Positions 34,149 through 45,831 of a stretch of DNA of 64,000 nt are shown piece by piece. This DNA comes from Phycisphaeraceae bacterium (GTDB lineage: Bacteria > Planctomycetota > Phycisphaerae > Phycisphaerales > UBA1924). The translations under genes were made by a program, and so were the position numbers. The DNA lies in contig JAHBWV010000001.1 in assembly GCA_019636845.1 (NCBI GenBank), positions 992,001-1,056,000 on the forward strand. The letters are read 5' to 3'. Positions within the stretch are counted from its first letter, which is position 1, and every line of letters starts with the position of its first letter. The notes beneath the pieces are model-generated. The model was not told the DNA's origin. It did no database searches and worked only from the letters and a program-made list of their open reading frames with translations.

Positions 34149-34196
34149 GTTTCCGCCCTTTCAAAGTGCCGAGTTGACGAAGCCACCACAAGTCGG

Positions 34197-34229
34197 ATAA
34201 TAATTGCGACTGAGTCTCAGTCGCGTCAA
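34197..34229 (-). promoter_or_regulatory. Promoter with a Fur-box-like palindrome
   Basis: A perfect inverted repeat, GCGACTGAG-T-CTCAGTCGC (34206-34224), fills the spacer between a TTGACG -35 box (complement of 34224-34229) and an AT-rich -10 region (AATTAT or TATTAT, complement of 34197-34205). A repressor bound here would block the promoter. The TGAGTCTCA core resembles Fur-family operators. This is consensus reading, not a tested site. Confidence 0.5.
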
Positions 34230-34332
34230 GTTTGACTTCTCCAACCAGCCGGAAAAAATCTCGCCTTACAGGAACGCGGCACTGGCTCTTGAAAGCCGCA
34301 CACCGGCGGATTAAAGGATACGATAGTCTTCA

Positions 34333-43686: not shown

Positions 43687-45831
43687 ATGCTCACTTCACG
43701 CGAGATCCTGAGTGACAACGGGCCGATCTCGGCCGCCCTTGGTGGGCGGTTTGAGGCACGCGATGAGCAGATCCGCATGGCGGTTGCCGTTGAGCGTGCG
43801 ATGGAGCAGGGTACGCACCTCGTGGTGGAAGCCGGAACGGGCGTCGGGAAGAGCTACGCGTACCTTGTGCCGGCGATCCGTCGTGCAATCCAGAAGAAGC
43901 AGCGCGTGGTGATCGCGACTCACACGATCTCGCTCCAGGAACAGCTGATGGAGAAGGACATCCCGCTGCTTCTTGGCACGCTTGACGTAGATGAGCAGCG
44001 AGGATGGGGACCAGAGTCTGATGTCAAGGCGGTGCTCGTCAAGGGCCGCGGGAACTACGTCAGCGTGCGTCGGCTTCGGCTGGCATCGGAGAGACAAGAC
44101 AGATTGTTCTCGGATGCGGCGGCGAAGCGATCTCTGCATGTGATCGAAGACTGGGCGTATGAGACCGCTGACGGCTCTCTGTCTTCGCTGCCGCCGCTTG
44201 AGCGTCCCGGCGTGTGGGACAAGGTCCAGTCCGACTCTGCGAACTGCATGGGTCGGCGTTGCCCGACATACGACCGCTGCTTCTACCAGTCGGCTCGTCG
44301 CGAGATGGACGAAGCCAACATCCTTGTGTGCAATCACGCCCTGTTTTTCAGCGATCTGGCGCTGCGTGCAGAGGGCGTCGGCTTTCTACCGGAGTATCAC
44401 CATGTGGTTCTTGACGAGGCGCACACGGCCGAGGAGGTTGCCAGCGAGCACTTCGGGCTGCATCTGACAGAGGGGCGTGTGATGCACCTGCTCACTACGC
44501 TCTACCAGCGGCGTTCCGGCAAGGGCTATCTGCCGCAACTTGGGCTTCAGTCTGACGATGCGGGTGCTATCGACCGCGCGGTGCATCTGGTCCTTGAGGC
44601 GGAGACATCCTGTCGCGCCTTCTTCGCCGAACTTCTTGCCCTTGTGCAATCCGGTAAGCTGAAAAACGGGCGAATTCGGTCGCCCGATCTGATCGACAAT
44701 CCGCTCACACCGGCAATGAACGCTCTGGCTCTTCGCCTGAAGCAACTGCGAGAGACTATCAAGAATGAACCAGATCGCTTCGAGTTGAACGCGTACATCG
44801 AGCGAGCGGATCGGATGGCAAAGGAGTGCCGCGCACTCGTCTCGCAGTCTCAGCCGGGGTGCGCTTACTGGATTGATGCGTCTTCGGGTGATGGTGAGGA
44901 GAGCGAGTTCGCCTCGATCCGTCGGGTTGGGCTCTCGTGCTCTCCGATCGATGTGGGTCCGCTGCTGAAGGAGCGGTTGTTCGATGCGGGTCACTCGGTC
45001 ATCCTGACAAGCGCGACGCTCTCGACCCGGTCTGTCGCTCGAGACGCGCCGTATGAGCATGTCGAGGCGGCCTTTGCACACACGCTCACGCGGCTCGGCT
45101 GCGAGGGCGCGGAACTCATCCAACTCGGCAGCCCCTTCGATTACGCCCGACAGGTCGAGCTTGTTATCGATCGGGCGACCCCGGCTCCCAAGGTGTGGAC
45201 GCAGAAGAACGGCCGCCACAGTGAACGCACCAAGGCCATAAAAGAGTACACGGACGCCCTCGCGGATCGCGTGCTGCTCCATGTGAAAGAGTCTCAGGGT
45301 GGGGCGTTCGTGCTCTTCACCTCGTTCTCGACTCTCTTTGCCGTCGGCGAGCGTCTGGCTGCTCCGCTTGCCGAGGAAGGGCTTCCGCTGCTTGTACAAG
45401 GCAAGGATGGATCAAGGTCAGATATCCTGAGACGCTTCCGCCAGGATGAGCGAAGCGTTCTGCTCGGAGCGGCATCGTTCTGGCAGGGAGTCGATGTCCA
45501 GGGACGCGGACTTCGGAACGTCATCATCACGCGACTTCCGTTCGATCCTCCTGATCGCCCTCTGGTCGAAGCACGGATGGAGCGGATCGCTTCCAAGGGT
45601 GGAGATCCCTTCAGGGAGGATTCGATCCCGAGGGCCTTGATCCGATTCAAGCAGGGCTTCGGTCGCCTTATCCGCTCCAGGAAGGATCGTGGGCGCGTCG
45701 TGGTGCTCGATTCAAGGATCGCATCGTCCGTCTACGGTCGACTCTTTGTGGCGGCGTTGCCCGAGGGCGTGCCGATCAGGGTCATCGAACCCGGCAGGCG
45801 ATCCCCTCGCGAAGAGATGTACGATGATTGA
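43687..45831 (+). CDS. DinG/XPD-like ATP-dependent DNA helicase (superfamily 2)
   Basis: 714 residues. Walker A 'EAGTGVGKS' at 48-56, motif Ia 'ATHTISLQEQL', DEAH box 'HVVLDEAHTAEE' around 235-245, and late motifs 'LLGAASFWQGVDVQGRG' and 'ALIRFKQGFGRLIRS' (motifs V and VI). The iron-sulfur region has Cys187, Cys192 and Cys198, but the position of the first Cys ligand ('GRGNYVS') is Ser126, so the cluster may be absent or held differently. Related enzymes unwind DNA with 5'-3' polarity and act on replication-repair intermediates. It lies six bases downstream of rsmG in the same operon. Confidence 0.88.
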   Translation: MLTSREILSDNGPISAALGGRFEARDEQIRMAVAVERAMEQGTHLVVEAGTGVGKSYAYLVPAIRRAIQKKQRVVIATHTISLQEQLMEKDIPLLLGTLDVDEQRGWGPESDVKAVLVKGRGNYVSVRRLRLASERQDRLFSDAAAKRSLHVIEDWAYETADGSLSSLPPLERPGVWDKVQSDSANCMGRRCPTYDRCFYQSARREMDEANILVCNHALFFSDLALRAEGVGFLPEYHHVVLDEAHTAEEVASEHFGLHLTEGRVMHLLTTLYQRRSGKGYLPQLGLQSDDAGAIDRAVHLVLEAETSCRAFFAELLALVQSGKLKNGRIRSPDLIDNPLTPAMNALALRLKQLRETIKNEPDRFELNAYIERADRMAKECRALVSQSQPGCAYWIDASSGDGEESEFASIRRVGLSCSPIDVGPLLKERLFDAGHSVILTSATLSTRSVARDAPYEHVEAAFAHTLTRLGCEGAELIQLGSPFDYARQVELVIDRATPAPKVWTQKNGRHSERTKAIKEYTDALADRVLLHVKESQGGAFVLFTSFSTLFAVGERLAAPLAEEGLPLLVQGKDGSRSDILRRFRQDERSVLLGAASFWQGVDVQGRGLRNVIITRLPFDPPDRPLVEARMERIASKGGDPFREDSIPRALIRFKQGFGRLIRSRKDRGRVVVLDSRIASSVYGRLFVAALPEGVPIRVIEPGRRSPREEMYDD

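Follow-up and report, generated by a model that had tools for sequence, protein, structure and literature searches.

A palindrome shared by a dockerin-tagged secreted protein gene and a divergent pseudopilin gene of Phycisphaerales very probably serves an iron-sensing repressor as its DNA switch

We analyzed a 64-kb stretch of DNA (C1:992001-1056000, referred to here as the window) of a 3.67-Mb genome that is 95% complete. Near its middle, a gene for a dockerin-tagged secreted protein and a divergent pseudopilin gene share one promoter region, which holds a perfect palindrome (Table 1). The palindrome lies upstream of both genes, 57 bases from the start of the secreted protein on the minus strand and 108 bases from the start of the prepilin-like protein on the plus strand.

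Table 1. Genes, predicted promoter elements and palindrome at the locus (window positions).
Feature	Position	Strand	Remark
Secreted protein, 343 aa	33117..34148	-	Signal-like N-terminus, CBM96-like beta-sandwich (about 20-290), C-terminal GC-type dockerin repeats
-35 hexamer TTGACG, predicted pseudopilin promoter	34174..34179	+	Consensus promoter scan
-10 hexamer GATAAT, predicted pseudopilin promoter	34196..34201	+	Consensus promoter scan; 16-bp spacer
-10 hexamer AATTAT, predicted dockerin-gene promoter	34200..34205	-	Consensus promoter scan; 18-bp spacer
17-mer TTGCGACTGAGTCTCAG, 7-1-7 site	34204..34220	+	26.0 bits on the de novo feoB-upstream motif
Perfect 9-1-9 palindrome GCGACTGAGTCTCAGTCGC	34206..34224	.	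Proposed Fur-type operator
-35 hexamer TTGACG, predicted dockerin-gene promoter	34224..34229	-	Consensus promoter scan
Divergent prepilin-like protein, 308 aa	34333..35259	+	N_methyl motif; conserved neighbor

No Pfam or NCBIfam family covered the N-terminal 290 residues of the secreted protein, and among the best 60 of 209 matches in a PDB profile search only the dockerin/EF-hand part was matched. Its AlphaFold2 model (22 sequences, mean pLDDT 88.2) is a beta-sandwich with the CBM96 fold: the best match was 8wab, a module that binds chondroitin sulfate (Z 13.0 over 168 residues, rmsd 3.6), the second was 7vbo, the alginate-binding CBM96 (Z 11.9 over 167 residues, rmsd 3.3), and the third-best fell well below them (Z 8.5). 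Judged from the modeled fold, the protein is probably sugar-binding. The DNRLRE model NF033679 gave no sequence match to the window protein or its 22 homologues. The GC-type dockerin model NF041540 scored 22.1 bits on the window protein, under its cut-off of 29, and matched 12 of the 22 homologues at E ≤ 0.01. The pseudopilin carries the N-terminal methylation motif PF07963 (21.9 bits vs. a cut-off of 21.2); in its model (mean pLDDT 86.2) a long helix at the N-terminus is joined to a globular part, for which no PDB match was obtained at E ≤ 0.001, and the fold thus gives no clue to function.

A preliminary description of this DNA had reported a 19-base palindrome with nine-base arms and a one-base center, and we confirmed it as perfect. 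GCGACTGAGTCTCAGTCGC is the sole perfect palindrome with arms of at least 9 bases and a center of 0-1 base in the whole window; with up to three mismatches allowed, the same position gave the one window match, vs. a mean of 0.02 in shuffles. The half-sites TGCGACT-G-AGTCTCA (34205-34219) have the inverted-repeat geometry of a Fur box, whether read as 7-1-7 or 9-1-9. The palindrome is unchanged in three other genomes of the same genus, where the orthologous proteins are 71-93% identical. Its likeness to Fur sites had been argued from the core TGAGTCTCA. This is a weak argument, that 9-mer being expected 0.53 times in the window by chance, and we rejected the core alone as evidence; the case for Fur rests on the comparative evidence given below.

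A consensus promoter scan returned three promoter-like sites in the shared region vs. 0.1 in shuffles, the third being a plus-strand match at 34232. The -10 elements of the two promoters in Table 1 overlap by two bases (34200-34201), and the palindrome covers the expected start point of the predicted pseudopilin promoter. The preliminary description had overlooked this divergent promoter and the sharing of the operator with the pseudopilin gene. Operator and promoters thus overlap as in a Fur box, the promoters being predicted ones. The palindrome had been said to fill the promoter spacer of the dockerin gene exactly: it does occupy the minus-strand spacer, approximately, since 19 bp are set in 18 bp and base 34224 is common to the palindrome and the -35 hexamer. 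If the promoter ended at 34197, as first proposed, its -10 would be TATTAT and its spacer, at 21 bp, too long.

Taking up to 750 bases of DNA ahead of the FeoB domain from each of 30 relatives, we searched de novo for any 17-base palindromic motif; the window site was withheld to avoid circularity. The best model, TTGAGACTCAGTCTCAA, reached at least 14.5 bits at 26 of the 30 feoB loci and was missing from four, which places the motif, found independently, at core iron genes, as is expected of a Fur box. The window site scored 26.0 bits on this model. The sole other window match at 12 bits or more scored 12.8 (at 45281), and 1.69 Mb of reversed control sequence held nine matches of at least 12 bits. 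The pattern taken from the window locus occurs, at three mismatches or fewer, at 24 of the 30 feoB loci.

The window's own genome was scanned with the 17-mer pattern TTGMGACTNAGTCKCAA, allowing up to two mismatches, and seven forward matches were found vs. three for the reversed control. Two of the seven overlap, leaving six places. One is the window palindrome itself; the others precede feoAB (C1:1072580), a heme oxygenase gene followed by a ferritin-like gene (C1:3046557), a DUF454 gene (C1:2349499), ctaA for heme A synthase (C1:2738673), and a PEP-CTERM-like secreted gene adjoining clpS. At these sites FeoB, Heme_oxygenase, DUF454 and COX15-CtaA were confirmed by Pfam, and clpS, katA, feoA and the ferritin-like gene were named by reading translations. 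The scan for the palindrome before iron genes that had been suggested at the outset thus located it at feoAB, heme oxygenase, DUF454 and ctaA; its absence from such genes, named in advance as the outcome that would count against Fur, was not observed, and the motif emerged de novo upstream of feoB of relatives too. Only the feoB set is independent, because the heme oxygenase, ctaA and DUF454 sites came from a pattern based on the window locus and its orthologues.

At no more than one mismatch, 62 sites were found in 34 of 41 genomes, and none in the reversed control. For 54 of them a recognized gene follows within 700 bases; the other eight are unassigned. Fifteen of the 62 precede feoB (feoAB). 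Fourteen belong to the window gene pair (9), a distant version of the pair (2) or the pseudopilin alone (3); among the nine, the site in G016 has the secreted gene alone beside it. The PEP-CTERM-like family accounts for seven sites, heme oxygenase for six, DUF454 for four, a phosphonate-type binding protein for three and DUF6662 for two, and ctaA, fur and an Fe-type binding protein have one each. This tally is descriptive rather than a blind test, as its reference proteins were taken partly from the same sites.

The PEP-CTERM-like family is a second secreted family with the same box, represented in the window's own genome upstream of clpS (contig C2; L207:2280-2951). Its tail scores below the model cut-offs, and the family has no Pfam match. 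The phosphonate-type substrate-binding protein follows a box in three genomes (L185, L195, L197), a hint that the phosphonate label may be wrong and the ABC transporter in question iron-related. A cysteine-desulfurase-like gene, named from its translation, lies 66 bases from a box in G025 (L160:3083-4321), possibly an iron-sulfur link.

Of the 41 genomes, 22 encode a relative that matches the secreted protein over nearly its full length. Using a matrix trained on 39 sites with the window gene pair excluded, we found a box within 300 bases upstream of 15 of these 22 orthologues, with shuffles reaching the score in 0 of 300 cases each; the box is absent from the same 300 bases of the other seven. 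The search was extended to 254 relatives in named genomes, of which 80 were kept and one was dropped for too little upstream DNA. The resulting 79 loci partly overlap with the 41-genome set. They are called Phycisphaerales loci for short: the titles that name a group give Phycisphaerae/Phycisphaerales or Planctomycetota, with a few Planctomycetaceae/Planctomycetia, and the exceptions are two loci from MAGs labelled cyanobacterial and a few whose label is just "bacterium."

The divergent pseudopilin is found in 76 of the 79 loci, and the other three hold less than 400 bases upstream. One or two boxes lie between the genes in 51 loci. Two boxes are present in 22 of them, spaced by 41-43 bp in 20 (L213, L222, L235, L236, L241, and others); this is about four helical turns, which suggests that a pair of repressor dimers binds to the same face of the helix. 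To control the placement relative to the best predicted promoters, flanks were shuffled and boxes kept. Among the 51 box-bearing loci, the box is located at -19 ± 3 of the predicted secreted-gene promoter in 23 (shuffle mean 3.0) and at -2 to +7 of the predicted pseudopilin promoter in 21 (shuffle mean 4.6). Both placements together occur in 16, whereas 100 flank shuffles gave 0.63 ± 0.70 and never more than 3. The secreted gene and the pseudopilin gene of G016 are on separate contigs, neither of them near a contig end, and both retain a box, that of the pseudopilin being weaker, which suggests that each gene of the pair is regulated in its own right.

Control is not universal, because 28 of the 79 loci and 7 of the 22 orthologues are without a box. 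A de novo search of the box-less relatives suggested another palindrome, ACAGGAAT.ATTCCTGT, clear in a few loci (L014, L229, L019, L282); in the form of about ACAGGAATnATTCCTGT it occupies the same intergenic place in these four and in L249, and the regulator may have been replaced there. A 19-base de novo run on the box-less relatives returned a motif in the pseudopilin coding sequence instead. Two genomes of another family (G031 and G035) have a different secreted protein in the same divergent position, with the box between the genes. Alignment of this partner with the window protein by hhalign (probability 81.6 over 82 columns) is only suggestive of homology; NF033679 matched the order-level partner of G035 at 4.9e-7 and 29.9 bits, below the cut-off of 34.

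The site, its conservation, the motif common to iron genes and the overlap with predicted promoters are properties of the sequences themselves, and on these grounds an iron-sensing repressor very probably uses the palindrome as its switch. That it is the operator of a FUR-family protein as such we regard as nearly certain; that this protein is an iron Fur and not a PerR-, Irr- or Zur-like paralogue is likely. The genome holds three FUR-family genes above the Pfam cut-off. A box in the promoter of the L003-type gene, the paralogue nearest to PerR and Irr, occurs at only 2 of 30 loci, one of them strong, so autoregulation does not single out the binder. If a PerR-, Irr- or Zur-like paralogue were the regulator, the signal would be peroxide, heme or another metal, and there are observations in favor of this: PerR and Irr are the best models for the L003-type protein (though all far below cut-offs), its gene has a strong box upstream in G004, and the DUF454 box is closely preceded by the end of a catalase gene. 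We consider this alternative improbable, as that box sits downstream of the catalase stop codon and the regulon is mostly feoAB, heme oxygenase and heme A synthase, i.e., an iron/heme set. An intrinsic terminator or RNA hairpin is hardly credible. On the minus strand the palindrome does have a terminator-like score (8 pairs, loop of 3, AT-rich tail), but 0.4 such terminators per 300 bases are expected by chance in shuffles; the promoter scan, which sets it between the hexamers of a promoter and ahead of both divergent genes, and the feoB-upstream motif, the same DNA word at similar distances before feoAB, led us to reject this reading. Short sequences may be palindromic by chance, but a chance palindrome or functionless relic is just as implausible given the perfect conservation in three other genomes of the genus, the motif in 51 of 79 loci and the empty reversed control in 41 genomes.

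We favor, with a probability of roughly 0.8, an interpretation in which an iron-responsive repressor of the FUR family controls both genes through the palindrome, an operator of the clade-specific form TTGMGACTNAGTCKCAA. We infer the identity of the repressor, the metal and the direction of control. With iron, the repressor would occupy the -35/-10 spacer of the predicted dockerin-protein promoter and would cover the point where transcription from the divergent pseudopilin promoter, which overlaps the first, is expected to begin, such that one site shuts both genes. At low iron it would leave, and both proteins would be made alongside feoAB, heme oxygenase, ctaA and the second secreted (PEP-CTERM-like) protein. 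What follows downstream is suggested more faintly: surface polysaccharide binding or iron scavenging. Adhesion to the cell surface or matrix under iron limitation would be as natural a role for a CBM-like protein as iron acquisition. No TonB plug domain was detected in 24 of the 41 genomes, the window's own (G000) included. This makes an alternative surface route attractive and proves nothing, the window's own genome being 95% complete. One speculative and rather unlikely extension is that the pair forms a Phycisphaerales surface iron-foraging system replacing TonB-dependent uptake, in which the dockerin-displayed CBM96-like protein would hold acidic polysaccharide with its bound iron, the dedicated pseudopilin would present or release it, one Fur operator would switch both, and iron would enter via the Feo and heme oxygenase routes.

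Among the titles and abstracts that searches of the open-access literature returned, none describes a Fur box or Fur regulon for Planctomycetota, and the letters of the motif were absent from the open-access full texts searched. As far as this literature shows, the iron link of the secreted and pilus-like pair has not been reported before. Iron in planctomycetes is touched on in connection with the growth of Gemmata with E. coli filtrate (PMC6851166). The present analysis provides a defined operator word and a first target set. Two conserved secreted/pilus-like families without an earlier functional hint now have one, iron, and the gene pair makes the question of surface iron gathering without a TonB plug domain directly testable.

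The classical E. coli Fur box is the 19-bp sequence GATAATGATAATCATTATC, also described by a 7-1-7 model. The box described here resembles it as a 9-1-9 inverted repeat with 7-1-7 heptamers, in its promoter overlap and in the feo and heme genes downstream, whereas it matches the E. coli consensus at just 10 of 19 positions and the heptamer TGMGACT is G+C-richer than TGATAAT. The best fold matches of the secreted protein are CBM96/DNRLRE modules (7VBO, 8WAB), from which it differs by large insertions, the dockerin tail and the missing NF033679 match; a structural calcium ion is reported for CBM96 (PMC9971899). Legionella IrsA, by its available description, is likewise a secreted protein under iron/Fur-type regulation and affects low-iron growth and biofilm (PMC11705809); it differs in being about 15 kDa and exported by type II secretion, and the same description reports no CBM fold or dockerin. 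ZepA of Anabaena is an exported beta-sandwich protein under the FUR-family repressor Zur, its palindromic sites overlap or sit just downstream of predicted promoters, and related sites are reported in the PVC superphylum (PMC10957091). The pair has in common with ZepA an exported beta-sandwich, FUR-family control and a palindrome at the promoter; ZepA is described with zinc/Zur, a PEP-CTERM tail and a conserved histidine site, whereas here we find iron-type sites, a dockerin tail, a CBM96-like fold and a divergent pseudopilin.
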